A DNA stretch of 57,185 nucleotides from Albimonas pacifica (GTDB lineage: Bacteria; Pseudomonadota; Alphaproteobacteria; Rhodobacterales; Rhodobacteraceae), in assembly GCF_900113695.1 (NCBI RefSeq), contig NZ_FOQH01000016.1:1-57185 (forward strand). The letters are read 5' to 3'. Shown here piece by piece: positions 39,173 to 57,185 of this stretch (positions are counted from its first letter, which is position 1; every line of letters starts with the position of its first letter). The position numbers were made by a program, and so were the translations under genes. The notes beneath the pieces are model-generated. The model ran no database searches and was not told where the DNA came from. It saw only the letters and a list, made by a program, of their open reading frames with translations.

Positions 39173-39200
39173 CCCCAAGCCCCCGTGCCGCCCCCGCCAA

Positions 39201-39483
39201 GCGCCTGTTCTCCGGAGCCGTCCATCGCGGATGCCGATCAGAGCGACTCGCCCGCCCCGGTCAAGGATCGCGAAGCGACCCGGCGAAGCCGGGCTTGTCC
39301 TTGACCGGGGCGGGCGAGTCGCTCAGGCATCGGACGCGATGGACGGATCCGGAGGACAGGCGCGGGCTTGTTCTTGGGTGAGTCAGGAGCCCGCCGGAGG
39401 CGCCGCCGCAGACGTTCGCGCGCCTCCGCCGCCCCGCGCGCGCCGCAGCCAGGCCCGCCCGCAGGGCGCCTGCAGACCGCTCC
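39201..39483 (+). repeat. Palindromic repeat element, copy A
   Basis: A 163-bp core (39201-39363) has 28-bp terminal inverted repeats that start GCGCCTGTTCTCCGGAGCCG and end with the complement. Inside, 39241-39267 and 39298-39324 are a perfect 27-bp inverted repeat. A conserved tail (GGGCTTGTTCTTGGGTGAGT, to about 39401) and, after a variable stretch, a block containing CCCGCCCGCAGGGCGCCTGC (to 39483) follow on the same side. It lies between convergent genes. No transposase is encoded; it looks like a non-autonomous palindromic element. Confidence 0.9.
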
Positions 39484-39553
39484 CCACCGCCTGGCGACGC
39501 GTCCGCCGTGCCGACGCCTGGGGCTGCGGTCCCCGGGCCGGGCCCGCCCGCCG

Positions 39554-41008
39554 TCAGAGCTTCTTCACCTTCAGCCGGGTGACCTGGTTGCGCCGCCGCT
39601 CCAGCACCTCGAAGCGGAAGCCGTGGAAGGAGAAGATCTGGCCCGCCGAGGGGATCGCCTGGGCCTCGTGGATCACCAGGCCGGCGATCGTGTTCGCCTC
39701 GTCGTCGGGCAGGGTCCAGTCGGTGGCGCGCACGAAATCGCGGATCGTCGTCGCCCCGTTCACGATCAGCGCGCCGTCGGGCAGGCGGGTCAGCCCCTCG
39801 ACCTCGGCGTCGTGCTCGTCGGCGATGTCGCCCACGATCTCCTCGAGGATGTCCTCGAGCGTGATCAGACCCTGCAGGGCGCCGTATTCGTCCACCACCA
39901 GGGCGAAATGCGACCGCCGCGTGAGGAACGCGCGAAGCTGCTCGTCGAGCGAGGTGGTGTCGGGGACGAACCAGGGCTCCATGGCGACCTCGACCACGTC
40001 CAGGCGCTGCAGCGCCGTCCACCCGTCCGAGGCGTCCGCCGTCAGGCGGTGCACGGCGCGCAGCAGGTCCTTGGCGTGGACCACGCCGACGATGTTCTCG
40101 GGCTCGTCCCGCCAGAGCGGAATGCGGGTGTGGGCGGACTTCAGGCAGAAGTCGAGGATCTCGGCCGGCGGCAGCGAGGCGTCGATCGTCTCGATGTTGC
40201 GCCGGTGGCGCATGACCTCGGCCACCTCCCGCTCGCGCAGGTCGAGGGCGGCGAGCAGGCGGTCGCGCTCGGCCTTCTCCACCGCGCCTTCGGAGTGGTG
40301 GAGGTCGACCATGCCCCGGATCTCGTCGAGCGCCAGCGCATGGGCCTCGGGGTCCATGCGCACGCCGAAAAGGCGCAGGAACAGGCGCACGCCCTTGGTC
40401 ACCGCGCCGACCACGGGGGCGAGGATGCGCACCACCACCTCGATCGGACGGGCCACGAAGGCCGCCGCCCGCTCGGGGTTGGAATAGGCGTAGTTCTTCG
40501 GCGCGATCTCGGAGAAGACCACCACCATCGCGGTCATCGCCAGCGTCGCCACCGCGATGCCGTTGGGGCCCACCAGCAGGGTGAACAGCGAGGTCGCGAG
40601 CGCGGTGCCCAGGATGTTGGCGATGTTGTTGCCGACCAGGATCGCGCCGATCAGCCGCTCGCCGTCCTCCTTCACCCTGAGCGCCGCCTGCGCGCCCTTG
40701 GAGCCGCGGTCGGCCATGCCGTGCAGCTTGGCGCGCGAGGAGGCGGTCAGCGCCGTTTCCGAGCCCGAGAAGAAGGCCGAGACCACCAGCAGCAGCACGA
40801 TGCCCGCGCCGATCCCCAGCACCTCGGCGGGCACGCCCGCGATGGTCATCGCGCCGTCGGCGAGGCCGGAGGCGGCCTGGGCGCCGCCGTCGGAGGCCGG
40901 GCCGCCCGCCTGAGCGAGGCGCAGCGGCGCCTCCGACGCGCCCGAGGGGTCTGCGAACGGGGCGCCCGGGGCGAGGGCGTCGGCGGCGGCTCGCGGATCG
41001 GGGGTCAC
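39554..41008 (-). CDS. CNNM/CorC family transporter-associated protein (HlyC/CorC type)
   Basis: 484-residue membrane protein. Domain order: a low-complexity N-terminus of about 55 residues; a DUF21 membrane domain with roughly four helices (IGAGIVLLLVVSAFFSGSETAL to VVFSEIAPKNYAYSNPE); two CBS domains (about 265-385, including HTRIPLWRDEPENIVGVVHAKDLL and SHFALVVDEYGALQGLITLEDILE); and a C-terminal CorC/HlyC domain. The family is linked to Mg2+/Co2+ efflux. The GTG start at 41008 follows AAGGAG at ten bases. It is divergent from the kinase gene. Confidence 0.92.
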   Translation of the reverse strand: MTPDPRAAADALAPGAPFADPSGASEAPLRLAQAGGPASDGGAQAASGLADGAMTIAGVPAEVLGIGAGIVLLLVVSAFFSGSETALTASSRAKLHGMADRGSKGAQAALRVKEDGERLIGAILVGNNIANILGTALATSLFTLLVGPNGIAVATLAMTAMVVVFSEIAPKNYAYSNPERAAAFVARPIEVVVRILAPVVGAVTKGVRLFLRLFGVRMDPEAHALALDEIRGMVDLHHSEGAVEKAERDRLLAALDLREREVAEVMRHRRNIETIDASLPPAEILDFCLKSAHTRIPLWRDEPENIVGVVHAKDLLRAVHRLTADASDGWTALQRLDVVEVAMEPWFVPDTTSLDEQLRAFLTRRSHFALVVDEYGALQGLITLEDILEEIVGDIADEHDAEVEGLTRLPDGALIVNGATTIRDFVRATDWTLPDDEANTIAGLVIHEAQAIPSAGQIFSFHGFRFEVLERRRNQVTRLKVKKL

Positions 41009-41132
41009 GGGCGGGGCGCTCCTTGTGGTCGAGGCGGTTGCGGGGGACGGCCGGAGGCCTCCTTATGGGGCGCGAGGGCGGCCCGGACAAGGCGGGGGCC
41101 GGCCGAAAGGACTCGAGCACGCGGGGGACGAC

Positions 41133-41996
41133 GTGGCGGAACGGCGGGAACGGGAGGCGGGGCGGGTGCTGTCGATCCAGTCGCTGGTCGCGGCGGGGCA
41201 CGTGGGGCACGGCGCCTCGGCCTTCGCGCTGGCGGCGGAGGGGATCGAGACGGTGGTGGCGCCGACGGTCGTGCTCTCGGGCCACGCGGCGACGCCGGGC
41301 GTGCAGGGGCGCCGCCTGCCGGGCGAGGAGATCGCGGCCCTGGGGCGCGGGCTGGCCGCGGCCGGCGTGCTGGCGGACTGCGCGGGCATCCTGACCGGCT
41401 ACCTCGGCGCAGGGGAGACGGCGGAGGCGGTCGCGGGCCTCGTCGAGGCCGCGAAGGCGGCGCGGCCGGGGGCGCTCTACCTGTGCGACCCGGTTCTGGG
41501 GGACGACGGGCCGGGGCTCTACCTGCCCGCCGAGGTCGGCGAGATCTACCGCACCCGCCTGCTGCCGCTCGCGGACGTGGCGATGCCGAACCGGTTCGAG
41601 CTGGGCTGGCTGACGGGGCGGCCGGTGGCGACGATCGAGGAGATCTGCACCGCCGCCGCGGCGCTGCGCGCGGCGGGGCCCCGGGCGGTGATCGTGACCT
41701 CGGCGCCGGTGGGCGACGGCGTGGGGCTGCTGAGCGAGACGGCCGAGGGCGCCTGGCTCGCGACGACGCCGCGCGTGGCGCGGGCGCTGAACGGGGCGGG
41801 GGACTTCGTGGCGGCGGTGACGATGGCGGGCCTGATGAAGGGGCTCGACGTGCCGCAGGCGGCGGCGAGGGCCGCCGGCGCGGCCTGGGCGGCGGCGCAG
41901 GCCGCCGAGCGGCTGGGCCGCCACGACATGCCGGTCGTGCTGGCCCAGGCGGAGTGGCGGGCGGCCGGGCCGGCGCAGAGCACGCGGCTGGGGTGA
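41133..41996 (+). CDS. pdxY: Pyridoxal/pyridoxine kinase (PdxY-like)
   Basis: 287-residue ribokinase-fold enzyme that phosphorylates pyridoxal in vitamin B6 salvage. It starts its conserved part with VLSIQSLVAAGHVGHGAS. Further features are GILTGYLG, YLCDPVLGDDG-GLY, MPNRFELGWLTG and the catalytic GAGDFVAAVTMAGL. The GTG at 41133 is chosen; a GTG at 41166, directly before the conserved start and after GGGAGG, is a serious alternative (276 residues). In the anion-hole segment it reads NGAGDF, where PdxY usually has GVGDV. It ends directly against repeat copy B. Confidence 0.82.
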   Translation: MAERREREAGRVLSIQSLVAAGHVGHGASAFALAAEGIETVVAPTVVLSGHAATPGVQGRRLPGEEIAALGRGLAAAGVLADCAGILTGYLGAGETAEAVAGLVEAAKAARPGALYLCDPVLGDDGPGLYLPAEVGEIYRTRLLPLADVAMPNRFELGWLTGRPVATIEEICTAAAALRAAGPRAVIVTSAPVGDGVGLLSETAEGAWLATTPRVARALNGAGDFVAAVTMAGLMKGLDVPQAAARAAGAAWAAAQAAERLGRHDMPVVLAQAEWRAAGPAQSTRLG

Positions 41997-41998
41997 GG

Positions 41999-42267
41999 AG
42001 GCGCCCTGCGGGCGGGCTTGGCCGGGGGGCGTCCGGGGAGCGGTTCGAGGGGCCGGGGAGGAGGGAGCCTCCGGCGGGCTCCTGACTCACCCGAGAACAA
42101 GCCCGCGCCTGTTCCCCGGATCCGTCTCTCGCTTGCGATGCCTGAGCGACTCGCCCCCCGCGGTCAAGGACAAGCCCCGCTGCGCGGGGTCGCTGCGCGA
42201 TCCTTGACCCCGGGGGGCGAGTCGCTCCGGGCGGCATCCGCGAGAGACGGCTCCGGAGAACAGGCGC
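41999..42267 (-). repeat. Palindromic repeat element, copy B
   Basis: Same element as copy A in opposite orientation. The palindromic core is 42105-42267 (163 bp); the tail and the GGCGCCCTGCGGGCGGGC block lie on its left, starting three bases after the kinase stop. The terminal repeats show a few mismatches to copy A. It again lies between convergent genes (kinase and ABC ATPase). Confidence 0.9.
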
Positions 42268-42359
42268 TTTGCGAGGCTTGGCGGGCGTTGCGCGAGGGGC
42301 GCATGGGGCGGGCGTCGGGAAAGGGGAAGGCGCAGGGTCCGCGAGGCGGCCGGGGGCGG

Positions 42360-43112
42360 TCAGGGGAGGAGCTGGCCGGAGAGCCAGGCGCGGGCGGGGT
42401 CGGAGACGGGGCGCGCGAGGAGCTCGGCGGTCGGACCGGTCTCGTGGTCGCGGCCGCGGTGCATGAAGATCGTGTGCTCGGCCAGGCGGGCGGCCTGCAG
42501 CGGATCGTCGGTGGCGAGGAGCACGGCCACGTCCTCGGCGACGATGCGGCGGATCAGGGCGTCGAGCTCGGCCGCGGCGCGCGGGTCGAGCCCGGCTGCG
42601 GGCTCGTCGAGGAGCAGGAGCCGCGGGCTCGCCGCCAGCGCCCGGGCGACGGCGAGACGCCTAGCCTCCCCGGGCGGCAGGGCGCGCGCCGGACGATCGG
42701 CGAGCGCGGCGAGCCCGGCGAGCGAGAGCAGCGCCTCGATCCGCGCGGGCCGCTCGCGCCGGCGCACCCGGGCCGCCCGCAGCGCGTGGTCGAGGTTGGC
42801 GCGCACCGGGCGGCGCAGGAGCGCGGCCCCCCGCGGGACCAGCGCCGTCGCCGGCGCCAGCGCGTGCACCTCGCCGAGGTCGAGCGGCACGAGGCCCGCC
42901 AGCACCTCCAGCGCCAGGGTCTTGCCCGCGCCGCGCGGACCCAGCAGCGCCGTGACCCCGCGCCCGGGCAGGCGCAGGGTCAGCCCGTCGAGCAGCCGCC
43001 GCCCGGCGTGAAGCGCCACCGCGCCGTCGAGCGCGGGCGGCGGCTCGGGCAGCGGCGGCGGCGGGGCGCGGCGGGGCGGGGGGAAGGGGATGACCTCGGG
43101 GCGCTCAGGCAT
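42360..43112 (-). CDS. tupC: ABC ATPase of a tungstate-type transporter, with unusual motifs
   Basis: 250-residue ATPase partnered with the downstream-facing permease gene that precedes it. Walker A (GPRGAGKT) and Walker B (LLLLDEPAAGLD) are normal. The signature motif is LPPGE instead of LSGGE, and the H-loop reads ATDDPLQA where other family members have ATHD, so two ATPase-critical motifs are altered. The N-terminal 25 residues are Pro-rich. The pairing with a TupB-like permease suggests tungstate (or molybdate) uptake. The first eight bases overlap the permease gene. Activity is uncertain. Confidence 0.7.
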   Translation of the reverse strand: MPERPEVIPFPPPRRAPPPPLPEPPPALDGAVALHAGRRLLDGLTLRLPGRGVTALLGPRGAGKTLALEVLAGLVPLDLGEVHALAPATALVPRGAALLRRPVRANLDHALRAARVRRRERPARIEALLSLAGLAALADRPARALPPGEARRLAVARALAASPRLLLLDEPAAGLDPRAAAELDALIRRIVAEDVAVLLATDDPLQAARLAEHTIFMHRGRDHETGPTAELLARPVSDPARAWLSGQLLP

Positions 43113-43899
43113 GGGCGGGCGCCTCCTGCGCCGGGCGCAGCAGCGCCGCGGCGAGATGCAGGGCGAGCGCCAGCGCCGCGAGCGTCAGCGCCAGCGCGAC
43201 GGCGAGGGCCGCCGCCCGCGCCGCCTCCGGAACCGCGGCGCCCGGGCCCATCGCGGCGGCGGCGCCCAGCAGCTGCGTGCGATGGGGCATGGCCCCGCCG
43301 ACGGCGAGCGCCGCCCCCGTCTCGCCCAGGGCCCGCGACAGCGCGGCGAGCGCGGCCGCCAGCAGCGCCGGGCGCGCCTCGCCCAGCAGGGTGCGCAGGG
43401 CGAAGAGGCGCGGGACGCGCATGGCGCGCAGGGTGGCCGCATGGGTCCGACGCTCGGCCGCCAGCGCCCGGCAGGCGAGGGCGGCGGCGACGGGGAAGGC
43501 CAGAAGGCCCTGGGCGAGCGCGAGCGCCGCGGGCGTGCCCAGCAACGCCGCGCCGGCGGGCGTCGCCGCCAGCGCCAGGCCCGCGGCCACCCCCACGCTG
43601 GCCGGCGGCAGGGCGGCCAGCGCGGCCAGCGTCCCGGCCAGAGCCCGACGCCCCGGGGCCGAGGCGAAGGCCAGCGCCGCGCCGAGCGGCAGGCCCAGCG
43701 CGCAGGCCGCCCCCGTGGCGCAGAGCGCCACGACCAGGCTGCGCGTGGCGATCTCGACCAGCAGCGGATCGAGCGACAGGATCAGCGAGACCGCCTCCCC
43801 CAGCGTCTCCCCCGGCCCGGAGGCGGGGGGCGCGGCGAAGGACCCGGCGCCGGTCCCGGCGTCGGGCGTCGCGGCGAGCGTCTCGCCCGTGCCTTCCAT
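43105..43899 (-). CDS. tupB: Tungstate-type ABC transporter permease
   Basis: 264-residue permease with about five or six membrane helices. The start of the core, ETLGEAVSLILSLDPLLVEIATRSLVVAL, resembles the TupB family (typically ...L-SGDPEV-EI--RSL-VSL). The ATPase-contact loop contains LSRALGETGAAL, typical of molybdate/tungstate/sulfate permeases. The 30-residue N-terminus is Gly/Ala/Pro-rich. No TupA-type binding protein is in the window, so the transporter is incomplete here. Confidence 0.7.
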   Translation of the reverse strand: MEGTGETLAATPDAGTGAGSFAAPPASGPGETLGEAVSLILSLDPLLVEIATRSLVVALCATGAACALGLPLGAALAFASAPGRRALAGTLAALAALPPASVGVAAGLALAATPAGAALLGTPAALALAQGLLAFPVAAALACRALAAERRTHAATLRAMRVPRLFALRTLLGEARPALLAAALAALSRALGETGAALAVGGAMPHRTQLLGAAAAMGPGAAVPEAARAAALAVALALTLAALALALHLAAALLRPAQEAPAHA

Positions 43900-43970
43900 G
43901 CAGCCTCCCGCAGCCTGCGCGCCGCCCGACGCCGCCCACCGGGCCCGGGCCGTCGCGCAGGAGCCGGAGC

Positions 43971-44834
43971 TCAGGGCATCAGGTCGAGCACGTAGCGGGG
44001 CAGCGCGAAGGCGGCGACGTGAACGTCGGGGGTATAGTAGCGGGTGGTTATGTCCGCTTTCTTGAAGCGCGCGGCGATCGTGGCGGGCGAGGTGGAGCGC
44101 GCCTCGCCCTTGCAGCCCCAGCCGAAGGCCATCGGCCCGCCGGCATAGGTGGGGATGGTGGCCATGTAGCAGGTCCAGTCCGCGAACAGGGCCTTGAAGG
44201 CGCGCAGCGTGTTGGTCAGCTCCTGCCCCTGCAGGAAGGGCACGCCGTTCTGGGTGACGAGGATGCCGCCCTCGTTCAGCAGGCGGTGGGCCTGGCCGTA
44301 GAAGGTGTCGGTGAACAGGACCTCGCCCGGGCCGATGGGGTCGGTGGAGTCGACGATGATCACGTCGTAGCCTGGCATGTCGCGGCGCACGAACTCGGCC
44401 CCGTCGGCGATCTGCAGGTCGAGGCGCGGGTCGTCGAAGGCGCCGTCGGAGATCGAGGGCATGTAGGTCTTGGAGAACTCGACCACGCCCGCGTCGATCT
44501 CGACCATGGTGACATGCTCGACCGACCTGTGGCGCAGCGCCTCGCGGGCCATGCCGCCGTCGCCGCCCCCGATGATCAGGATCCGCTTCGCAGCGCCGTG
44601 GGCGAGCACGGGCACGTGGGTCATCATCTCGTGGTAGATGAACTCGTCGCCCTCGGTCACCTGCACCACGCCGTCGAGCGTCAGGATCCGCCCGAAGGTG
44701 GGGTTGCGGAACACGCGCAGGCGCTGGTGCTCGGTCTCGCTGTCATAGAGCAGCGCGGTCTCGCGCAGGGCCTGGGCATGGTCCTCGTGCAGCGTCTCCA
44801 CCGTCCAGCCGGGGATTTCGCGGATGTCGGTCAT
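43971..44834 (-). CDS. speE: Spermidine synthase
   Basis: 287-residue aminopropyltransferase that makes spermidine from putrescine and decarboxylated AdoMet. The Rossmann core shows ILIIGGGDGGMAREALRH, VEIDAGVVEFSK, the substrate-side VDSTDPIGP and the Tyr/Gln-rich YHEMMTHVP and LVTQNGVPFLQ segments. GDEFIYHEM and ATIPTYAGGPMAFGW are family signatures. The ATG at 44834 (MTDIREIPGW) is taken. It is divergent from glpK. Confidence 0.95.
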   Translation of the reverse strand: MTDIREIPGWTVETLHEDHAQALRETALLYDSETEHQRLRVFRNPTFGRILTLDGVVQVTEGDEFIYHEMMTHVPVLAHGAAKRILIIGGGDGGMAREALRHRSVEHVTMVEIDAGVVEFSKTYMPSISDGAFDDPRLDLQIADGAEFVRRDMPGYDVIIVDSTDPIGPGEVLFTDTFYGQAHRLLNEGGILVTQNGVPFLQGQELTNTLRAFKALFADWTCYMATIPTYAGGPMAFGWGCKGEARSTSPATIAARFKKADITTRYYTPDVHVAAFALPRYVLDLMP

Positions 44835-45036
44835 GGGCGGGCGGTCTCCTGCGGGGGATGGGCGAAAGCGGGCTTCGGCCTGCCTAGACGGCGGCCGGGC
44901 GGGAGGCAACCCGAGGATTGGCGGGCGGGCCCTCCGCCGCGGCATGGAGGCGCTCTCCGCCCCACGGAGGGTGCGCCGCCTCGGGGGACGGGCGCTTCGC
45001 CGCCGGGGGTTGCCGGGCCGCGGATCGGCTGCAAGT

Positions 45037-45062
45037 CTTCCCTGCGAAGAAACGCAGGGAGG
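45037..45062 (+). promoter_or_regulatory. Hairpin covering the glpK ribosome-binding site
   Basis: CTTCCCTGCG (45037-45046) and CGCAGGGAGG (45053-45062) can pair over ten positions (one G-T) with the six-base loop AAGAAA. The AGGGAGG part of the right arm is the Shine-Dalgarno sequence of glpK, whose ATG is at 45068. The hairpin would hide the ribosome-binding site, so it may be a translational control element. Confidence 0.5.
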
Positions 45063-45067
45063 CGCGG

Positions 45068-46555
45068 ATGGGCTACGTTCTGGCCATCGACCAGGGAACC
45101 ACTTCGACGCGGGCGATCCTGTTCGGGGAGGACCGCGCGGTGGTCGCCGCCGGGCAGGAGGAGTTCCGCCAGCATTTTCCGCGCTCGGGCTGGGTCGAGC
45201 ACGACCCCTCCGACCTGTGGTCGACCACCGCCGCCACCTGCCGCGAGGCGATGGAGCGCGCGGGCGTGCGCGCCGGCGACATCGCGGCCATCGGCATCAC
45301 CAACCAGCGCGAGACGGTGGTGCTGTGGGACCGCAAGACCGGGCGCGCCGTGGCCCCCGCGATCGTGTGGCAGGACCGGCGCACCGCCGAGATGACCCAC
45401 GAGCTCAAGGAGCAGGGCCACGAGCGGATGGCGCGCGAGCGCACCGGCCTGCTGCTGGACCCGTATTTCTCGGGCTCGAAACTGTCGTGGATGCTCGACC
45501 AGGACGGGCTGCGGGAGCGGGCCGAGCGCGGGGAGCTCGCCTTCGGCACCGTCGACAGCTGGCTGATCTGGAACCTGACGGGGGGCGAGGTGCATGCGAC
45601 CGACGCCACCAACGCCTCGCGCACGCTGCTCTACAACATCCATGAGCAGCAGTGGGACCAGGAGATGCTGAAGCTGCTCAGGATCCCTGAGAGCCTGCTG
45701 CCGGAGGTGCTTGATTCGAATGCCGATTTCGGGATGGCCCGGGCGGACCTGTTCGGCGCGCCGATCCCGATCCTGGGCGTGGCGGGCGACCAGCAGGCGG
45801 CGACCGTCGGCCAGGCCTGCTTCCGGCCGGGGATGCTGAAGTCGACCTACGGGACGGGGTGCTTCGCGCTGCTCAACACCGGCGAGCGGCCGGTGCTGTC
45901 GGAGAACCGGCTGCTCTCGACCATCGCCTACCGGATCGACGGCAAGACCACTTATGCGCTGGAAGGCTCGATCTTCATCGCCGGCGCGGTGGTGCAGTGG
46001 CTGCGGGACGGGTTGAAGATCATCCGCCATGCCTCTGAAACGCAGGCGCTGGCGGAGGCCGCGGACCCGCATCAGTCGGTCTATCTGGTGCCGGCCTTCG
46101 CGGGCCTCGGCGCGCCCTGGTGGGATCCAGACGCGCGCGGCGCGATCCACGGGCTGACCCGGGCGACGGGGCCCGCGGAGCTCGCCCGCGCGGCGCTGGA
46201 GAGCGTGGGCTACCAGACGCTCGACCTGCTGGAGGCGATGCGCCGCGACTGGCCGGAGGGGGAGGCCGACACGGTGCTGCGCGTCGACGGGGGGATGACC
46301 GCCTCGGACTGGGCGCTGCAGTTCCTCGCCGACATGCTCGACGCCCCGGTGGACCGGCCGAAGATCCTGGAGACGACCGCGCTGGGGGCGGCGTGGCTGG
46401 CGGGCTCCAAGGCCGGGGTCTGGCCGGGGATGGAGGAGTTCGCGCAGAGCTGGAAGCTCGACCGCCGCTTCGAGCCGAAGATGCCCGACGACGACCGGGC
46501 GCGGAAGATCGCGGGCTGGCGGGACGCGGTGCGCCGGACGCTGACCGAGACCTGA
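45068..46555 (+). CDS. glpK: Glycerol kinase
   Basis: 495-residue FGGY kinase that phosphorylates glycerol to glycerol-3-phosphate. Family features: [76 protein letters not shown] and the late [10 protein letters not shown]. The C-terminal stop lies in a ten-base tandem repeat (CCGAGACCTGA twice). It stands alone; glpF, glpD and a regulator are not in the window. Its ribosome-binding site lies in a hairpin (see 45037). Confidence 0.97.
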
Positions 46556-46594
46556 CCGAGACCTGACAGGGGCTTGCAGGGTGGAGCTGAGAGA

Positions 46595-47035
46595 TCAGGG
46601 CAGCTCCAGCGCGGCCGCGTCGCCGCGCAGCCACTCGGCCAGCGCCTGCGCCGTCGCCGGGGTTCGGCGCACGGTCAGGGCGCATTCCCAGACCACAGCG
46701 GCGCGCCAGCCCAGCGCCGTCAGCTCGGCCAGAGCCCGCGCGTCACGGGCGACGTTGCGCTCGAATTTCGGCAGCCAGTAGTCGGTTCGCGTGGCGGGCG
46801 TGGTGGCGCGCGGGCAGCCCGGGTGGCGGTGCCAGAAGCAGCCGTGCACGAAGACCGCGGCGCGGAAGCGGGGGTAGACGAGATCGGGGCTGCCGGGCAG
46901 GGCGCGCACCTGAAGACGGTGCCGCAAGCCCATGGCATGCATGGCTTTCCTCAGCCGCATCTCCGGCGAGGTGTCGCGCCCTTTCACCGCCGCCATGGTC
47001 CGCGAGCGCGTAGCCGCGTCGAACACGTCCGTCAT
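46595..47035 (-). CDS. vsr: Very-short-patch repair endonuclease (Vsr)
   Basis: 146-residue endonuclease that nicks at T:G mismatches arising from deamination of 5-methylcytosine. The family core is intact: TRSRTMAAVKGRDTSPEMRLR (with the early glutamate), GSPDLVYPRFRAAVFVHGCFWHRHPGC (catalytic Asp and His residues), DYWLPKFERNVARD, and GWRAAVVWEC. Normally vsr sits beside a cytosine C5-methyltransferase (dcm-like). None is present in this window, so it is an orphan here. It converges with glpK. Confidence 0.94.
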   Translation of the reverse strand: MTDVFDAATRSRTMAAVKGRDTSPEMRLRKAMHAMGLRHRLQVRALPGSPDLVYPRFRAAVFVHGCFWHRHPGCPRATTPATRTDYWLPKFERNVARDARALAELTALGWRAAVVWECALTVRRTPATAQALAEWLRGDAAALELP

Positions 47036-48752: not shown

Positions 48753-48778
48753 GCGGGTCTCCTTGAGGCAGAAGCTTA

Positions 48779-48796
48779 ATACCGACTGGTCGGTAT
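48779..48796. promoter_or_regulatory. TetR operator (18-bp palindrome)
   Basis: ATACCGACTGGTCGGTAT: two perfect 8-bp arms around a TG centre, 27 bases upstream of the TetR start codon. This is a classical TetR-family operator shape; the minus-strand promoter must overlap it. Confidence 0.85.
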
Positions 48797-48898
48797 GTTT
48801 GGCAAGCGAAGACTGACGCACGCGGATCGCAGATGCGGCCGACGCAGCGCGCAAACCCCAGCGGGCCGCTTGGGATCATTTCGGGGATGGGGGGGGCG

Positions 48899-48974
48899 TG
48901 GTGCCCGGGGGCGGATTCGAACCACCGACACGCGGATTTTCAATCCGCTGCTCTACCAACTGAGCTACCCGGGC
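48899..48974 (-). tRNA. tRNA-Phe (anticodon GAA)
   Basis: 76-base tRNA with encoded CCA on the minus strand: acceptor GCCCGGG/CCCGGGC, D-arm AGCTCAGTTGGTAGAGC, anticodon loop TTGAAAA (GAA), T-arm GGTTCGAATCC. Confidence 0.97.
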
Positions 48975-49061
48975 GGGGCGCCGTCTTGGCGGCGCGAGGG
49001 GGGAGATATCGAATGGCGGAGGGGCTGACAAGAGCCTCCGGAGGATTTTGTGCGGCCGGTT

Positions 49062-49244
49062 TCAGGACGTCGCGTCACGGGGCGCGGGCAGGGCCGCGTC
49101 CTCGGCGTCGGGGTCGTCCTCCTCGACGGCAGGAATGGCGTAGGCGCCGTTCAGCCAGCGCGCCAGGTCCACGTCCGCGCAGCGCTTGGAGCAGAACGGG
49201 CGATAGGCCTGGACGGTGGGCTTGCGGCAGATCGGGCAGGGCAT
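49062..49244 (-). CDS. yacG: Zinc-finger protein YacG (DNA gyrase inhibitor family)
   Basis: 60-residue protein with a four-cysteine zinc site: MPCPICRKP (CxxC) and FCSKRCADVDLARWLNG (CxxxC). The acidic tail (EEDDPDAEDAA) is family-like. In E. coli YacG binds GyrB and inhibits gyrase. It follows the RNase E/G gene by about 120 bases on the same strand, as in many alphaproteobacteria. Confidence 0.92.
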   Translation of the reverse strand: MPCPICRKPTVQAYRPFCSKRCADVDLARWLNGAYAIPAVEEDDPDAEDAALPAPRDATS

Positions 49245-49362
49245 GGGCGGGCTCCTTTCGCGGCGGGGGCAGGGTCGCGCCTATCCGGGAACGCGGCAAG
49301 CCCCGCGAGGGCGGGGCGCGCGGCGAGGCGGGCAGGGGCGCGCAGGGCGCGCGCCCCATGGG

Positions 49363-50463
49363 TCAGGAGAAGTCGCGGGGCAGCAGCTCGCGCAGGGGGC
49401 GACGCTCGCGCCGGCGGGTCAGCTCGATGTGGCCCAGCGGGGTCCAGCCGAGGACCTGGGTGTCCACGGGGTCCTCGCGCAGCGCGCGCTTGATGGCGGT
49501 CTCGGCCTGCTTGCGGTCGCGCTTCGACAGGGGGGCGAGGTCGATGACGATCTGCCCGCCCAGGCCCCGCAGGCGCAGCTGGCGGGGCAGGTCGGCGAGC
49601 GCGGCGAGATTGGCCTTCAGTCCCGCGGCGGTCGAGAAATCGCCGCCGGTGTTCACGTCGATCGCGGTCAGGGCCGAGGTCGGCTCGACCATCATCCAGG
49701 CGTCGGTCCCGAGATCCACGCGCGGGCGCAGCAGCGCGCCGAGCTGGTCGAGCGCGCCCATGTCGTCCCACAGGCGCAGGTCGCCGCGGATCACTTCCTC
49801 GGGCTCGGGGTCGACCCAGTCGCGCCAGGCGCGGGTCACGGCGTCGGGGGCGGCGACGACCTCGGCGGGCTCTCCGCCCTCGGCCTCGGCGGCGCGGGCG
49901 GCGTTGAGCAATTCGGCCAGCGCCGCCACGTCGTCGTGGATCGCCTCCTCGTCCACGCCCTCGGCGGCGGAGCGCAGGATGGCGCCGGGGGCGGCCTCGC
50001 CCAGCGCCTCGGCGCCGAGGCCAAGGGCGGAGAGCGCCTCCTCGGCGATGACGCGCAGGCGGGCGGCCTCGTCCTCGTCGCGCACGCGGCGGGCGACGTT
50101 GATGCCGGGCGCATGGGGCGTGAGGATCGCGTAGCGGCCCTTGTAGAGCGGCTCGTCGGAGACGGGGGTCGCCTTGCCGGGCTCGGCATGGCGGGCGACC
50201 TGGACGAGGAGCTTCTCCCCGGGGCGGGCCTTCCGGGGGGCTTTCAGAAAGCCCTCGCGGCCGTCGCCGAGGTCCAGGAACAGGGCGCCGATGGCCTCGA
50301 CCCGGCGGATGACTTTCGCCAGGTGCACGGCCTCGAGCCGCGGGGCGGGGTCGCTCTCGGGCGGGTCGATGGCAAGGTCCTCGATGCGCCCGTCGACCAT
50401 CAGGGCGGCGAGGGCGGGCCATTTCGGCTCGTCCTCGAGGATCAGAACGGCGCGGCCCTTCAT
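49363..50463 (-). CDS. Short ribonuclease E/G family protein
   Basis: 366-residue RNase E/G-type protein. The DNase-I-like catalytic part is recognisable with both metal aspartates: [10 protein letters not shown] and [15 protein letters not shown]. An S1-like region ([12 protein letters not shown]) lies near the N-terminus. The protein ends at [13 protein letters not shown], before the Zn-link CPxCxG segment of RNase E and G, so it is a shorter subfamily. It starts in an overlap with the maf stop (ATGA). A role in RNA processing is expected but untested for this branch. Confidence 0.88.
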
Positions 50464-51143
50464 GCGGGGGATCCTTCCCAGGTGACGGGCACGCCCGCGC
50501 CCTGGAGGAGGTTCGCGACCTCGACCAGGGGCAGGCCCACCACGTTGGTGTAGCTGCCGTTGATGGCGGGGACGAAGCCGGCGCCGATGCCCTGGATGGC
50601 GTAGCCGCCGGCCTTGCCGCGCCACTCGCCCGAGCGCAGGTAGGCCGAGATCTCGGCGTCCGACAGGCGCTTGAAGCGGACCTGGGTTTCCACGCGGCGG
50701 GTCCACTCCCGGCCGCCGCGCCGCAGGGCGACGCCGGTGATCACGCGGTGTCGGCGCCCGGAGAGGAGGGAGAGGAACCCATAGGCCTCCGCCTCGTCCT
50801 GCGGCTTGCCCAGGATCCGGCGGCCGGCGGCGACGACCGTGTCGGCGGCGAGCACCGCGTCGTCCCCGCCGAGGCCCGCGGCCACCGCCTTCGCCTTCTC
50901 GCGCGCGAGGCGCAGGGCGTAGGGGCGGGGCTCCTCGTCCTTCTTCGGGGTCTCGTCGATGTCGGCGGGGATCACCGCGTCGGGGACGACCCCGATCGAG
51001 GCGAGCAGCGCCAGCCGGCGCGGCGAGGCGGAGCCGAGCACGAGGCGCGGCCCGGCGGCGTCGGGCGTCCGGCGGGGGGCCGGATCGGCCGCCGGCCCGT
51101 CCGCGCCTGGCGCCTGCGGCGCAGGGGCGGGGTCGGCGGTCAT
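50460..51143 (-). CDS. maf: Maf-like nucleotide pyrophosphatase
   Basis: 227-residue Maf/Ham1-superfamily protein that hydrolyses non-canonical or modified NTPs. The core begins [18 protein letters not shown] and has the acidic/lysine residues in [29 protein letters not shown] and [16 protein letters not shown]. An additional 31-residue Ala/Pro-rich N-terminus precedes the core; the ATG at 51143 directly follows infA (four bases after its stop). The infA-maf-RNase E/G order is conserved in alphaproteobacteria. Confidence 0.93.
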
Positions 51144-51147
51144 CGTC

Positions 51148-51366
51148 TTACTTGAAGCGGTAGGTGATGCGGCCCTTGGTCAGGTCGTAGGGCGTCATCT
51201 CCACCTGGACCTTGTCGCCCGCCAGCACGCGGATGCGGTTCTTGCGCATCTTGCCCGCGGTGTGGGCGATGATCTCATGGCCGTTCTCGAGCTTCACCCG
51301 AAAGGTCGCGTTCGGCAGAAGTTCGACAACGACCCCGGGAAATTCGAGAGTCTCTTCCTTGGCCAT
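51148..51366 (-). CDS. infA: Translation initiation factor IF-1
   Basis: 72-residue OB-fold initiation factor: [41 protein letters not shown] and the end [12 protein letters not shown] match IF-1 throughout. It begins a leftward run infA-maf-RNase E/G. Confidence 0.98.
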
Positions 51367-51703
51367 GCCATCTCCGGAGCAGCAAACAGGGATCGCCGCG
51401 GCGCGCCCCTGCGCGTCGCGTGCCGGGGGGTATGGCGCCCTGCGCGCCGGATTTCAAGGCGCCGCGGACGAGCGGGCGCGAAGTCGGGGGCGGCGGGGAC
51501 GGGAGACGCGGGGCCCGCGTGCGGGGCCCGGACAAGGACGCGGGCGTTTTCCCGCCGAACTCGCGTCGATTGCGGCGGCGCCGCCCAAATCGGGGCGAAG
51601 TCGGGGTGTTGTTGCGAACCGCGTTGAAGGCGCGGAACGCCCGCCCATCTCTTGGACCGAGGCGCGCCACGACAGGCTGCGCCCCGGAACAACGGAGGAC
51701 ACC
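51367..51703. other. Divergent promoter region infA / DUF992 gene
   Basis: 337 bases between the divergent infA and DUF992 genes. Both promoters must be here, but no clear -35/-10 pair stands out. The only palindrome-like sequence is GGCGCCCTGCGCGCC at 51434-51448 next to ATTTCAAGGCGCC. Confidence 0.35.
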
Positions 51704-52216
51704 ATGATCAACCGCAAGATCGCCGGCCTTTCCGCTCTGGCCCTGACCGCCGCCGCGGCGGTCTCCGCCCCTGCGCTCGCCGCGGGCCAGGCCAACGAGC
51801 GCGAGGCGGCTGTGGAAGTCGGGGTGCTGACCTGCGACCTGACCGCCAAGGACAACGACATCATCCGCGCCAAGACCGAGTACGTGTGCTCGCTGGACGC
51901 GCAGGACGACCAGTTCGACGGCACGTATGTCGCCAACATCACCAAGTGGGGCGTGGATCTCTCGACCACGGACCAGGAAGTGATCAAGTGGGCGGTGCTG
52001 ACCACGCAGGAGAAGTTCAACCCCACGATGATGGACGGCGAGTACGTGGGCGCCTCGGCCGACGTCTCGGTGGCCTACGGCGCGGGCGTGCGGGTGCTGG
52101 TGGGCGGCGAGTCCGACGCCATCTCGCTGCAGCCGCTGTCGGTGTCCGGCAAGGAGGGCTACGGCCTCGCGGTCGGCCTCGAGTCGATGGAGCTGCGCGC
52201 GGTCGACCCTTCGTAA
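51704..52216 (+). CDS. DUF992 family secreted protein
   Basis: 170-residue protein with an N-terminal signal peptide (residues 1-27, ending in ALAAGQ). The mature part matches DUF992: VGVLTCDLTAK, VCSLDAQDDQFDGTYVANITKWGVDL, GEYVGASADVSVAYGAGVRVLVGG and SLQPLSVSGKEGYGLAVGLESMELR. The fold is beta-rich and the function unknown; periplasmic or surface location is expected. GGAGGAC lies just before the ATG. A strong hairpin terminator follows. Confidence 0.88.
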   Translation: MINRKIAGLSALALTAAAAVSAPALAAGQANEREAAVEVGVLTCDLTAKDNDIIRAKTEYVCSLDAQDDQFDGTYVANITKWGVDLSTTDQEVIKWAVLTTQEKFNPTMMDGEYVGASADVSVAYGAGVRVLVGGESDAISLQPLSVSGKEGYGLAVGLESMELRAVDPS

Positions 52217-52223
52217 GCCGCTC

Positions 52224-52262
52224 GGCCCGGCCGCGGACCCGATCCGCGGCCGGGCCCGGTTT
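52224..52262 (+). terminator. Terminator after the DUF992 gene
   Basis: Perfect 14-bp stem (52224-52237 with 52243-52256) with the five-base loop CCCGA, then CGGTTTCC. Eight bases after the stop codon. Confidence 0.7.
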
Positions 52263-52534
52263 CCCGGCGCGGGATCCGCGCGCCGGGGCGAGGCCCGACG
52301 GCCCGCCGCCCCGGCGTCCTTCGTGAACCCAGAGCCTTCGATCCCTCGAGGCTCGCCAGCGGCCGGACCGGGCGTCGTCCCTCGCGCCCCGTCCGCCCCC
52401 GCCCGGGAGAGGCGCGCCCCGCACAAGCGGGGCGCGTCGCTGCCTGTGCCCTCCCCCGGGCCCTTCCCGTCTTCCCCCCTTTCGCGACGTCCGCCCCGGG
52501 CGCCCCTGGCGCGACGCCCGCCAGGCCCCGCAAA

Positions 52535-52807
52535 GCGCCTGTTCTCCGGAGCCGTCTCTCGCGGATGCCGACCAGAGCGACTCGGCCCCCGGGGTCAAGG
52601 ATCGCGCAGCGACCCCGCGCAGCGGGGCTTGTCCTTGACCCCGGGGGGCGAGTCGCTCAGGCATCGCAAGCGAGAGACGGGTCCGGAGAACAGGCGCGGG
52701 CTTGTTCTTGGGTGAGTCAGGAGCCCGCCGGAGGCTTCGACGCCGGCAGTCCGTGACCACGGTCCCGCCAGGCGCCCCCCGGCCAAGCCCGCCCGCAGGG
52801 CGCCTGC
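52535..52807 (+). repeat. Palindromic repeat element, copy C
   Basis: Core 52535-52697 (163 bp) with the same terminal inverted repeats as copy A; inner inverted repeat 52575-52601 with 52632-52658. Tail to about 52735 and terminal block to 52807. It lies between convergent genes. The 270 bases before it (52263-52534) are GC-rich and contain no gene that I can see. Confidence 0.9.
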
Positions 52808-52823
52808 GAGCCCGGGAACCCCT

Positions 52824-53270
52824 TCAGAACGCCGGGAACTCCCGGCGCAGGTTCGCCAGGATCTGGTCGCGCGTCTGCCGGTAGGCGTCGAGCTTCTGTT
52901 CCCGCGTCTGTCCGATCCCGGTGGGATCGAGCGTCGGCCAGTAGCGCACTTCGGTCGCGAACCAGCGGGTCTGGTCGAGCGCCGCGCGCTGGGCGGCGGG
53001 GGAGAGGGCCACGATCAGCTCGTAGCTGTCGATCTGGTCGCCGCCCATCGCCAGGTCCTCGAAGGAGCGCACCTTGTGGGCGGTCAGCTCCACCCCGATC
53101 TCGGCGCAGGCGGCGACCGCGAACGGGTCCACGTCCATGTCGTGCTTCACGCCCGCCGACTGCACGAAGACCCGCGCCCCGTGCAGCTTCTTCATCATCC
53201 CCTCGGCCATCGGCGAGCGCACCGCGTTGTGATCGCAGCAGAACAGGATCGAGGCGGGGAGCTCGGCCAA
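52824..53270 (-). CDS. Low-molecular-weight phosphatase family protein
   Basis: 148-residue protein with the LMW protein tyrosine phosphatase / arsenate reductase fold. The catalytic loop CDHNAVRS (C-x5-R, Cys12 to Arg18) is followed by PMAEGMMKKLHG; the late aspartate region reads YWPTLDPTGIG. Whether it acts on phosphotyrosine or arsenate is not clear. The start is TTG at 53270, which follows GAGGG and lies directly behind the UPF0262 gene; the frame is open further upstream, where it overlaps that gene. Confidence 0.82.
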   Translation of the reverse strand: MAELPASILFCCDHNAVRSPMAEGMMKKLHGARVFVQSAGVKHDMDVDPFAVAACAEIGVELTAHKVRSFEDLAMGGDQIDSYELIVALSPAAQRAALDQTRWFATEVRYWPTLDPTGIGQTREQKLDAYRQTRDQILANLRREFPAF

Positions 53271-53280
53271 GCGTCTGCCC

Positions 53281-53751
53281 TCAGCCGCGGAAGTGGAGGA
53301 CGCAGACCAGGGTGAACAGGCGCCGGGCGGTGTCGGCATCGACCACCGCCTTGCCCTCGAGCCGTTCCTCGAGGATCCGCGCGCCCTCGTTGTGGATGCC
53401 GCGCCGGCCCATGTCGATCGCCTCGATCTGGGAGGGCGGCAGCCGCTTCACCGCGTCGTAGTAGCTTTCGCAGATCGCGAAGTAGTCCTTGATGATCTGG
53501 CGGAACGGCCCGAGCGAGAGGTGGAACTCGGCGGCGGGCTCGCCCGCCTCGGTGCGGATGTCGAAGACCAGCCGGCGGTCGCGGATCGAGAGGTCGAGCC
53601 GGTAGGGGCCCGGCGGCACGCCCTCCTTCTGCACGTCGAAGGCGTTCTCCTCGAGCAGGTCGAAGATCGCGACCTTGCGCTCCTGCTCGACCTCGGGCGT
53701 GGGGGGCGCGAGGCCCGCCTCGTCGAGGGTGACGGCGACCAGACGGCTCAT
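53281..53751 (-). CDS. UPF0262 family protein
   Basis: 156-residue protein of the UPF0262 family, found mainly in alphaproteobacteria beside hisD. The characteristic sequence [48 protein letters not shown] is present (given here in parts: [36 protein letters not shown]). Function unknown. Its start overlaps the hisD stop by four bases and the phosphatase gene follows after ten bases, so the three form one operon. Confidence 0.92.
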
Positions 53752-55076
53752 GTCCCGGACTCCATCGAGGCTTCCTCCTCGTTGAGCGCCGCGAGGCGCA
53801 GGCCGACGGAGAGCGCGTGCGCCTCCAGGCTCTCCGAGCGCGCCAGGGTCTCGGCGGCGGGGCCGATGGCGGCGAGCGCGCCGGGCGTCATCCGCGCGAT
53901 GGTGGTGCGCTTCATGAAGTCGAGCACCGAGAGCCCCGACGAGAACCGCGCCGAGCGGGCGGTGGGCAGCACGTGGTTGGGCCCCCCCACGTAGTCGCCG
54001 ATCGCCTCGGGCGTGAAGGCGCCGAGGAAGATCGCGCCGGCGTGGCGGATGTTCGCGGCCACCGCCTCGGGGTCGGCGGTGACGATCTCGAGGTGCTCGG
54101 GCGCGATCCGGTCGGAGACGGCGGCGGCCTCGGCCATGTCGCGCACCAGGATCACCGCGCCGTTGGCCCGCCAGGAGGCGGCGGCGATCTCGGCGCGCTC
54201 GAGCCGGGTCAGCAGCCGCTCGACCGCCGCGATCACCGCCTGGGCGAGGGCGGCCGAGTCGGTGACGAGGATCGACTGGGCGGAGGGATCGTGCTCGGCC
54301 TGGGACATCAGGTCCATGGCGACCCACTCGGGGTTGGCCGTCGCGTCGGCGATGACCAGGATCTCGGAGGGGCCGGCGATCATGTCGATGCCGACGGTGC
54401 CGAAGACCCGCCGCTTGGCGGCGGCCACGTAGGCGTTGCCGGGGCCGGCGATCTTGTCGACGGCGCGAATCGTGTCGGTGCCGTAGGCGAGCGCGCCGAT
54501 CGCCTGCGCGCCGCCGATCCGCCAGACCTCGTCGACGCCCGCGATCCGGGCCGCGAGCAGGGTCAGCGGATTGGCCTTGCCCCCCGGGGTCGGCATGCAG
54601 ACCGCCAGCCGCTCGACGCCGGCCACCCGCGCGGGGATCGCGTTCATCAGCAGCGACGAGGGGTAGGAGGCGAGCCCGCCCGGCACGTAGAGCCCCGCCG
54701 CCTCGACCGCCGTCCAGCGCCAGCCCAGCGTGGCGCCGTGGGGGTCCTGGAAGGAGACGTCCTCGGGGCGCTGGCGGGCGTGGTAGGCCTCGATCCGCTC
54801 GGCGGCGATCTCCAGCGCGCGGGCCTCCTCGGGGGGGACGGCGGCGCAGGCGACCGCGATCTCCTCCTCGGAGATGGCGAGCGTGTCGGGGGCGAGCTGC
54901 ATGCGGTCGAAGCGCGCGGTGTGGTCGATGACCGCGTCGTCGCCGCGTTTGCGCACGTCGTCGAGGATCGCCGCCACGACGTCGTCCACCTCGGGCGAGG
55001 ACTCCCGTTTCATCGACAGGAGGTCGCGGAACCGGCTCTCGAAATCCGGGGCGTCGGCGCGGAGCGTGACGGGCAT
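53748..55076 (-). CDS. hisD: Histidinol dehydrogenase
   Basis: 442-residue zinc enzyme carrying out the last two steps of histidine synthesis (histidinol to histidine with NAD). Family sequences: [69 protein letters not shown], and [18 protein letters not shown]. The ATG at 55076 (MPVTLRAD) is preferred. It is the first gene of a hisD-UPF0262-phosphatase operon. Confidence 0.97.
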
Positions 55077-55159
55077 GGGGCCTCCGAAATCAGCGTTCCG
55101 CGGTGATAGCGGGCGGCGGCGGCGGTCACAACCGGGGGCGAACATCGCGGAAGCGGTCC

Positions 55160-55436
55160 GCAGGCGCCCTGCGGGCGGGCGCGGCGGCGTCGCGCCGGAT
55201 GGGGCGAGGGGCGAGGGAGCGGCTGGCTGCGGAGCCTCCGGCGGGCTCCTGACTCACCAAAGAACAAGCCCCGCGCCTGTTCTCCGGCGCCGTCCATCGC
55301 CTAGGCTGCCTGAGCGACTCGCCGGGAGCGGTCAAGGACAAGCCCGCGCAAGCGCGGGTCGCTGCGCGATCCCTGACCGCTCCCGGCGAGTCGCTCTGAT
55401 CGGCGCCCGCGACGGACGGCTCCGGAGAATAGGCGC
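55160..55436 (-). repeat. Palindromic repeat element, copy D
   Basis: Reverse orientation like copy B. Core 55273-55436 (164 bp); the tail and the AGGCGCCCTGCGGGCGGGC block are to the left. The right terminal repeat has a C-to-T change in AGGCGC's neighbour (ATAGGCGC) and the inner stem uses a CGGGAGCGGTCA variant, with compensating changes on the other arm (TGACCGCTCCCG). It lies between hisD and the DUF2948 gene, which share the same strand. Confidence 0.88.
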
Positions 55437-55543
55437 TCGGCGAGGGCCGGTGGGCGTCGCGCCGGCGCCCGCCCCGGGCCGCGGCGCTTGCGGGGAGGGA
55501 GGATGGCGCGGGCCGAGGGGAGGGCTAGGCAGGACCGCCGCCC

Positions 55544-56032
55544 TCAATCCCCGGGGTGGCTCGGGGCCTTGCCGGAGGGGGCCAGGTAGGGGCGGGTCAC
55601 GTCCTCGACCCGCACCTCCAGCGCCTCGACCTGGATCGCGATCTCGCCGTCGCCGGCGAGGATGATGCGCAGGAGGCCCGAGGGGTCCTCCGGGTCGGGC
55701 GAGCCCGCGAACTCCAGCCGCAGCACCGAGAGCGCCTGGCCGCGCTCCGACGGGTCGACGCCGGCGGCGCGCACGCTCTCGACGTTCTCGACCAGCGCCA
55801 CGCAGCGCACCCGCTCGTAGGGGCGGCCGGCCTTCTCGGCGCGCTCGCGGTCCTCCCAGCGGAAGCGGTTGAGGAACAGCGCGAAGCGGCGCTTGCGGCG
55901 CATCCAGGCGAGGTCGCCCGCCACGCCGGCGGCGTCCTGCAGCAGGGCGGAGACGACCTCGAGGTCCTCCGCGCTCTCGGCCCGCAGGCGGATCGGCCGC
56001 TCGGCCGCGTCTTCGAAACGTGCGTCGCTCAT
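55544..56032 (-). CDS. DUF2948 family protein
   Basis: 162-residue protein of the DUF2948 family: IRLRAESAEDLEVVSALLQDA, AWMRRKRRFALFLNRFRWED and the end EALEVRVEDVTRPYLAPSGKAPSHP are characteristic. It is conserved in alphaproteobacteria near murA and hisD. Function unknown. It lies between repeat copies D and E, which separate it from both neighbours. Confidence 0.9.
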   Translation of the reverse strand: MSDARFEDAAERPIRLRAESAEDLEVVSALLQDAAGVAGDLAWMRRKRRFALFLNRFRWEDRERAEKAGRPYERVRCVALVENVESVRAAGVDPSERGQALSVLRLEFAGSPDPEDPSGLLRIILAGDGEIAIQVEALEVRVEDVTRPYLAPSGKAPSHPGD

Positions 56033-56128
56033 CGCTCCCCCTGCGCCCTTCGGCGCTGCAACAGATCCCGCCCGCGCCCCAGATAGGGGACCGGGCGCCC
56101 GGGTGGCAAGGGCAGGCCCCCTGCGGGA

Positions 56129-56416
56129 GCGCCTGTTCTCCGGAGCCGTCCGTCGCTGGCGGCCGACGGAGCGACTCGCCCCCCGGGGTCAAGGATCGCG
56201 AAGCGACCCCCCGCAGGGGGGCTTGTCCTTGACCCCGGGGGGCGAGTCGCTCAGGCAGGCCAGAAGCGATGGACGGCTCCGGAGACCAGGCGCGGGGCTT
56301 GTTCTTGGGTGAGTCAGGAGCCCGCCGGAGGCTCCCGACCTTCCCGGCGCCTCCCATCGGCCGCCACGAGAACCGACCCAGCCAAGCCCGCCCGCAGGGC
56401 GCCTGCAGACCGCTCC
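56129..56416 (+). repeat. Palindromic repeat element, copy E
   Basis: Core 56129-56293 (165 bp), then the GGGGCTTGTTCTTGGGTGAG tail and the AAGCCCGCCCGCAGGGCGCC block, ending two bases before the murA stop. Inner stem GAGCGACTCGCCCCCCGGGG with its complement. It lies between murA and the DUF2948 gene. Confidence 0.9.
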
Positions 56417-56418
56417 GC

Positions 56419-57185
<767 letters not shown>

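Follow-up and report, generated by a model that had tools for sequence, protein, structure and literature searches.

The window analysed here, a 57,185-nt stretch of DNA from Albimonas pacifica (contig NZ_FOQH01000016.1, positions 1 to 57,185; C18 in our numbering), is part of a 6.02-Mb genome (G000; order Rhodobacterales, NCBI family Paracoccaceae) and carries five copies, A to E, of a long fold-back repeat, the Albimonas element. All five lie where an earlier reading of the letters without database searches (the sequence-only reading) had placed them. The whole repeat unit measures ~275 bp and consists of a 163-bp core, a tail of ~41 nt, a variable spacer of ~40 nt and a terminal block of ~35 nt (Table 1); the tail, the variable stretch and the second constant block on the same side, which that reading had also described, are all present, the tail being ~41 nt long.

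In the core, a 28-bp outer stem (P1) is joined through a short asymmetric junction to a 27-bp inner stem (P2), whose tip carries the linker CTTG as well as two small hairpins (P3 and P4); core length in the A. pacifica copies is 160-165 bp. P1 forms terminal inverted repeats, a trait of miniature inverted-repeat transposable elements (MITEs) of the ERIC, NEMIS and RUP type; the core ends are GCGCC, and CGTC is present inside P1. The tail reads GGGCTTGTTCTTGGGTGAGTCAGGAGCCCGCCGGAGGC plus a few bases, and the terminal block is centred on GCCAAGCCCGCCCGCAGGGCGCCTG. If the direction of an element is defined by the tail side (tail last), copies A, C and E run from left to right and copies B and D are inverted. 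Folded as RNA, copy C together with its tail comes out 11.8 standard deviations below shuffles, and the inner-stem substitutions of copy D are mirrored on the opposite arm, as had been noticed from the letters.

Table 1. Positions in the window of the parts of the five copies of the Albimonas element.
Feature	Start	End	Strand	Remarks
Copy A core	39201	39363	+	163 bp; P1 28 bp, P2 27 bp, apex hairpins P3 and P4
Copy A apex	39261	39304	+	TCAAGGA-P3-P4-CTTGTCCTTGA; P4 terminator-like
Copy A tail	39364	39404	+	U-rich start, GAGTC site, small GC hairpin
Copy A terminal block	39447	39480	+	Separate REP-like repeat
Copy B core	42105	42267	-	
Copy B apex	42164	42207	-	
Copy B tail	42064	42104	-	
Copy B terminal block	41992	42026	-	
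Copy C core	52535	52697	+	
Copy C apex	52595	52638	+	
Copy C tail	52698	52738	+	
Copy C terminal block	52775	52810	+	
Copy D core	55273	55436	-	164 bp; both inner-stem arms changed
Copy D apex	55332	55376	-	TCAGGGA variant with G-U pair
Copy D tail	55231	55271	-	
Copy D terminal block	55152	55194	-	
Copy E core	56129	56293	+	165 bp
Copy E apex	56189	56232	+	
Copy E tail	56295	56335	+	
Copy E terminal block	56377	56411	+	

Chance can be excluded as the source of the repeat, because its end and its tail are matched many times in the genome and never in the controls: a 22-base core-end pattern (≤3 mismatches) gave 147 + 149 matches against 0 for the reversed control, and the tail pattern 40 + 63 against 0. 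Since each copy has two ends, A. pacifica carries roughly 150 copies, and the five seen in the window, all of them real, belong to a much larger genomic family. A profile search of the window and of 135 of the 136 places outside it among the matches listed (the copy at C48:152000 was left out) recovered 141 copies; seven of these lack a full core and were set aside, and among the 134 complete cores 121 have the tail and 120 extend to the terminal block. In the sister species, the congener Albimonas sp. CAU 1670 (G001), an unselected stretch of 800 kb with 701 predicted genes holds 24 copies, 22 of them with a complete core, and a second sample from this genome comprises 63 loci picked by an exact tail, two of the original 65 having been left out for want of a full core. 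The terminal block (191 matches in the genome, 5 in the control) is a REP-like repeat independent of the core, because it also occurs elsewhere, partly as close inverted pairs, and it is retained at one site without the core; the second constant block thus follows the variable stretch, as had been reported, but is a repeat of its own. One inverted pair of the block lies at C31:439877/439921.

Genes around the elements were called with a codon-usage gene finder written for this analysis, and none of the 134 complete A. pacifica cores overlaps a predicted gene. The flanking pairs are convergent at 51 cores, divergent at 11 and tandem at 72 (51 against 11, p = 3e-7); read in element direction, upstream gene first, they are co/anti at 51, co/co at 42, anti/anti at 30 and anti/co at 11, and the upstream gene is co-directional with the element at 93 of the 134 (p = 8e-6). 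Among the exact-tail loci of CAU 1670 the corresponding numbers are 24, 17, 17 and 1, four of the 63 being without a flank, and the 22 complete cores of the unselected 800 kb comprise 8 in convergent and 14 in tandem pairs (8 co/co, 6 anti/anti) and none in divergent pairs. The convergent excess is real, because convergent and divergent pairs are equally common in that contig (99 and 98, with 503 tandem). Within the window, copies A, B and C stand between convergent genes and copies D and E between tandem genes, none being inside a gene, which agrees with the sequence-only reading. Copy B is situated between a pyridoxal-kinase-like gene and a gene for an ABC-type ATPase, copy D adjoins hisD and copy E adjoins murA.

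Pairing was assessed over 133 A. pacifica copies, one of the 134 complete cores having no readable tip. Watson-Crick pairs make up 94.2% of P1 and 98.0% of P2, and two-sided changes that retain pairing occur at 14 of the 64 consensus pairs, in 32 copies. P1 is imperfect, with a standing mismatch at pair 17, and the earlier description of the repeat needs correction in this respect. A functional palindrome had been held unlikely if most copies lay inside genes or showed no compensatory changes; the cores lie outside genes and compensatory changes are present. Among the 16 tips compared across several genera, 88% of cells are paired; shuffled controls give 66%.

The stems and the tip behave as separate modules. 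In 100 of the 133 copies the two inner 9-mer arms are perfectly matched; the arm-to-arm mutual information is 2.91 against 1.80 when permuted, and the inner-stem arm has a weak link to the P4 that it encloses (1.66 against 1.55 ± 0.04). Outer-stem variants go with those of the junction (0.385 against 0.171 ± 0.026) and of the inner stem (0.603 against 0.421 ± 0.033), but not with those of P4. There are 46 variants of the inner-stem 9-mer and 29 of P4, and the combination of outer stem, inner stem and P4 is distinct in 110 of the 133 copies. The tip hairpin is thus exchanged almost independently of the arms. Because a single conversion tract would not move both arms and yet leave P4, it is probable that one arm is copied from the other or that selection re-pairs the arms.

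The reading that we favour, tentatively and with a confidence that stops short of even, is that the Albimonas element is a non-autonomous intergenic repeat that acts as an RNA hairpin at transcript 3′-ends, either as a terminator or as an end protector, and is kept uniform by recombination. Transcription of the upstream gene would enter the core, and the RNA would fold into the long stem of P1 and then P2, capped by P3 and P4 and followed by the tail hairpin; the folded RNA would then end or protect the transcript, and the near-palindrome might also serve the convergent gene from the other side, although less well. Copies would stay uniform by exchanging short segments, possibly through conversion, and either selection on the fold or repair of one arm from the other would keep the arms matched; the repeat itself would have been spread in the past by some enzyme. 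A GC hairpin followed by a U-rich tract, the trait of intrinsic terminators, is present at P4, and a terminator scan marked P4 with CTTGTCCTTG in all five window copies (8 sites in the region, against 3.5 ± 1.7 in shuffles). Where a gene stops 60 bp or more ahead of an element, its own terminal hairpin tends to be weaker (median z −0.30, n = 93) than at convergent gene ends that have no element (−1.01, n = 118; p = 0.02).

One transition at a paired site gives G-U or A-C depending on the strand. Of the two, RNA tolerates G-U alone, while folding as DNA, or repair of one arm from the other, is expected to treat both alike. On the element strand, G-U cells outnumber A-C cells by 150 to 9 in A. 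pacifica and by 101 to 1 in CAU 1670. When columns of both genomes are summed, multi-copy columns are 19 for G-U and 0 for A-C, and single-copy columns 20 and 10 (p = 0.004); a crude count at other loci and plasmids gave 14 G-U against 2 A-C. With the reservations set out below, we take this asymmetry as moderate evidence of selection on the RNA of the element strand.

Several results weigh against a role as an RNA hairpin. Other mismatches (G-G, G-A and T-C, for example) are multi-copy in 10 columns of A. pacifica and 8 of CAU 1670, compared with 11 and 8 for G-U, and they include the standing G-A or G-G at pair 17 of P1; it is thus A-C, found in single copies only, that is the odd one out, and not G-U alone that is tolerated. 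The columns counted come from copies that are related to one another, and a strand bias in mutation could mimic the outcome. A crude walk through other family genomes gave 9 G-U against 5 A-C cells, with 8 of the 24 stems yielding only two pairs. Some other genera have lost the U-rich stretch after P4, and G006 has a compensated change in an otherwise constant stem (TCAACCC/GGGGTTGA), both of which speak against a universal terminator. The direction bias of the tandem pairs is not significant (42 against 30, p = 0.19), and 22 cores per 701 predicted genes in the 800 kb of CAU 1670 do not fit a general terminator. In the comparison of hairpin strength, the groups of which are partly from different genomes (two mixed), gene ends beside elements still surpass non-ends (z −0.30 against 0.43, n = 74; p = 0.002), so that many of them already have a hairpin. 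Among relatives of the tip on plasmids, described below, RNA parameters gave the two-hairpin shape in one of eight, most of the others pairing P3 with P4. Because the other mismatches are spread in this way and the plasmid tips favour a fold with DNA parameters, the RNA-hairpin reading was downgraded and its rivals were upgraded. The terminator or mRNA-stability role that the sequence-only reading had suggested is consistent with the 3′-end location, the covariation and the terminator-like match in all five window copies, while the RNA-level test is mixed.

It is possible, although we rather doubt it, that the repeat is a selfish MITE- or REPIN-like miniature element without a host role, which was scattered in the past by some transposase and was left at gene 3′-ends when selection purged it from genes and promoters. 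Copies are many in two species, and five of the 18 A. pacifica sites whose flanks are both adjacent in the 800 kb of CAU 1670 are unoccupied there. In a third species (G002), none of the five comparable sites is occupied, and one weak partial match was found, against 26 among the matches listed in CAU 1670. (Outside these 18 and 5 sites, 4 and 4 have non-adjacent flanks and 2 and 21 have one flank in CAU 1670 and G002, respectively.) Numbers are also uneven across genera, the candidates listed including at least 20 copies in G076, at least 10 in G006 and at least 1-5 in the other matching genomes except A. pacifica, and relatives are present on plasmids. Scattering without a host role is less easily reconciled with the small amount of decay, seen in the complete core of 22 of the 24 copies in the unselected 800 kb, and movement must be slow, because 13 of the 18 sites are common to species at ~90% protein identity. 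Moreover, a search for Y1_Tnp (RAYT), the only transposase searched for, found none in A. pacifica, CAU 1670, G002, G076, G006, G020 or G022; one match each was found in G124 and G152. A RAYT-driven REP was rejected for A. pacifica on this ground. The transposable element proposed from the letters thus gains from the copy number in two species and the unoccupied sites, and loses from the negative Y1 search.

Sharing of sites between the two species is partial. For 37 of the 59 CAU 1670 copies with two flanks, A. pacifica has the same genes side by side with an element between them, a proportion biased by the choice of A. pacifica stretches for carrying elements, the 13 of 18 sites given above being subject to less bias; in the rest the genes are adjacent without an element (2) or not adjacent (3), or one flank (7) or none (10) was found. 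Median identity is 83.2% for same-site copies and 81.7% for different sites, and the ortholog is the best match in 1 of 37 (median rank 15). At 10 element-absent sites that were aligned, and at two more, the intergenic DNA is too diverged to show an empty site or a target duplication. One A. pacifica site without the element holds a short GC hairpin instead.

The binding site that the sequence-only reading had offered as a third choice finds its counterpart in conserved GANTC sites and a CcrM-like gene, and the element could accordingly be read at the DNA level by the CcrM/GANTC system, as proposed for the CIR repeat of Caulobacter and Brucella; we consider this improbable. GANTC is present at both P2 feet in 121 of 133 A. 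pacifica and 59 of 63 CAU 1670 copies, with a covarying central base, and in the tail of 102 and 58 copies, respectively; 59 of the 729 GANTC of the 800-kb contig fall in the 5.6 kb of elements. At other loci both feet are GANTC in 17 of 29, two of which have GATTC opposite GACTC, so that the centre is mispaired and GANTC is kept. Among the proteins of A. pacifica is one resembling CcrM (E = 8e-162 to 6pbd; 628.7 bits with the NCBIfam CcrM model, cut-off 830). However, 12 of the 29 other loci, plasmid pWP4 included, lack GANTC at both feet, 6 of the 133 copies have lost the foot site through a compensated change from A-T to G-C, and the most widespread part of the element is the tip and not the foot.

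The tip occurs well beyond Albimonas. A tip pattern matched 10 of 198 family genomes including A. pacifica ("family" being the search tool's grouping, f1), and both hairpins were recognized by eye in 8 of the 9 others. A covariance model trained on the 16 tips, whose sources include A. pacifica and six other family genomes and whose E-values are rough, matched 21 of 149 family genomes, these seven among them, 7 of 385 across the class, five from other families, and 13 of 398 across the phylum; its weak matches L380, L384 and L398 do not resemble the full form. In the wider family form, P2 with the tip is followed by a spacer, by a second hairpin that often has GGGCAGACCTGCCC, and then by CCTCTCAGCA. 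Three single copies lie between aldehyde-dehydrogenase and GMC-oxidoreductase genes. Two loci of another genus (L378 and L389 in G020) share the block ACGCTGGAGTCAGCGCGGACAGGGATATGGAGGGCGGGCG after a variable spacer, which repeats the layout of core, spacer and block with different letters.

Searches with blastn found 12 plasmid records with one tip of the wider form (E 1e-3) and 94 with the tip of pBBR1 (E 0.01), which lies at 1277-1322 (L410), ~460 bp before rep; the tip is also on pZMO1A, pYQ39, pA29J1, a 1.4-kb Yersinia plasmid, and Mycobacterium and Streptomyces plasmids. The carriers are small plasmids with unrelated initiators, from Proteobacteria to Actinobacteria, and the tips lie outside the listed genes, the gene table being incomplete. 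With DNA parameters the two-hairpin shape was obtained at 15 of 20 plasmid loci (9 of 12 and 6 of 8, L426 failing in both), L416, which was folded only as RNA, being counted as a failure; L416, L425 and L428 match the tip only in part. Hairpins with similar tips were seen at L031 (314-353), L410 (at the position given above), L417 (1441-1485), L422 (603-648) and L421 (4001-4045). On a Bradyrhizobium plasmid (L414, 3001-3052) an ISNCY transposase gene has its 3′-end ~80 bp from the tip, which may therefore be carried by an insertion sequence.

The least likely of the readings is a single-strand replication signal (sso/ssi-like) spread from plasmids and acting as folded single-stranded DNA, which would suit the position of the tips on such small plasmids, the 6 of 8 plasmid tips that take the two-hairpin shape with DNA parameters against 1 of 8 with RNA parameters, the P3 loops, GAA or GCA in 132 of 133 A. 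pacifica copies and very stable in DNA, and a relative (L394 in G327) that has a weak match to Rep_trans close by (24.1 bits, cut-off 29.6), but against which stand the differing directions of the tip relative to rep among plasmids and the chance-level agreement of chromosomal neighbours in direction. Replication polarity was rejected as an organizing principle: contig C32 looked one-sided at first, but neighbours agree in direction in 50 of 98 cases (permutation mean 50.5), and in CAU 1670 element direction does not depend significantly on strand skew (34 of 59). The only link to skew is local and found in A. pacifica, where element direction tracks the skew at fourfold sites of nearby genes in 91 of 129 regions. 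A phage origin was likewise rejected. Phages gave no match for the element or for one relative's tip, and viral contigs searched with the window hisD protein gave no relative; at least 120 viral-contig stretches have the tip pattern, but among the matches listed three have adjacent hairpin segments and only two (L245 and L294) look like true tips, so that most such matches are chance.

The capped tip, TCAAGG-[hairpin]-[hairpin]-CTTG-CCTTGA, could conceivably be an undescribed structured element of chromosomes and plasmids of Proteobacteria and Actinobacteria that is read by a conserved host factor, on plasmids possibly as folded single-stranded DNA, and that some Rhodobacterales have amplified as a module beside gene 3′-ends, with matched arms and a nearly independently exchanged enclosed hairpin, but we hold this to be doubtful. 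The plasmid motif, TCAAGGc-hairpin-hairpin-CTTGgCCTTGA, resembles the Albimonas tip and lacks P1 and a tail of the Albimonas type, and no named family was found for it. The tip common to chromosomes and plasmids is the newest part of these observations.

In agreement with the remark that the repeat was not recognized as a named family, the covariance models of Rfam gave no match reaching the gathering score, either to the elements at window positions 39000-57185 (the best had 34.1 bits, with a gathering score of 62) or to 20 relatives, and a literature search of partial coverage found no paper on this repeat among the entries listed. Compared by their descriptions in the cited excerpts, one of the closest systems is the Yersinia palindromic sequence YPAL/RU-2 (~168 bp; PMC2229807, PMC2267715), which is similar in size, fold-back, intergenic position and copy number (tens to ~100) and is thought to affect the RNA of the upstream gene, and which makes target duplications of 3-26 bp (PMC2229807), whereas the flanks of the Albimonas element are too diverged to show any; those excerpts do not mention exchanged stem modules for YPAL. 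ERIC/IRU and NEMIS are likewise long hairpin repeats that enter transcripts, and for Yersinia ERIC and for NEMIS an action via RNA hairpins has been reported or proposed (PMC2267715, PMC2229807); as described there they have TA termini and target duplications, unlike the GCGCC ends of the Albimonas element. CIR (~110 bp, with GANTC at or in the terminal loop; PMC2229807) is also alphaproteobacterial, intergenic and kept across species with conserved GANTC, and its two hairpin arms with a linker recall the wider family form, whereas the Albimonas element, going by the same description, differs in its GANTC in the stem foot, its 160-165-bp core and its two-hairpin tip. REP/BIME, REPIN and CGTC-REP repeats share the many copies and the extragenic position, and the terminal block is REP-like in size and in its inverted pairs; REPs are given as 20-40 bp (PMC3733652), far shorter than the core, and A. 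pacifica has no Y1 (RAYT). The Albimonas repeat thus appears akin to YPAL, ERIC and NEMIS in its working and to CIR in its GANTC, yet would be a member of none, because it has no RAYT, REP size, Rfam match or readable target duplication and carries GANTC in the stem.

The effect of palindromic repeats on transcripts is an old question for REP, ERIC and YPAL, and ~150 natural copies in which the stem letters vary and the shape is constant offer a ready test of it for long palindromic repeats in bacteria. The near-independent exchange of tip and arms allows selection on the fold to be set against self-templated DNA repair of the arms. If the tip does have one function on pBBR1 and on chromosomes, this would bear on a widely used laboratory replicon.

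Elsewhere in the window, Rfam identified a tRNA gene on the minus strand at 48902-48974. Profile matches for an N6/N4 methyltransferase occur in two pieces at 11383-12453, in a 723-codon frame that is possibly a restriction-modification gene.

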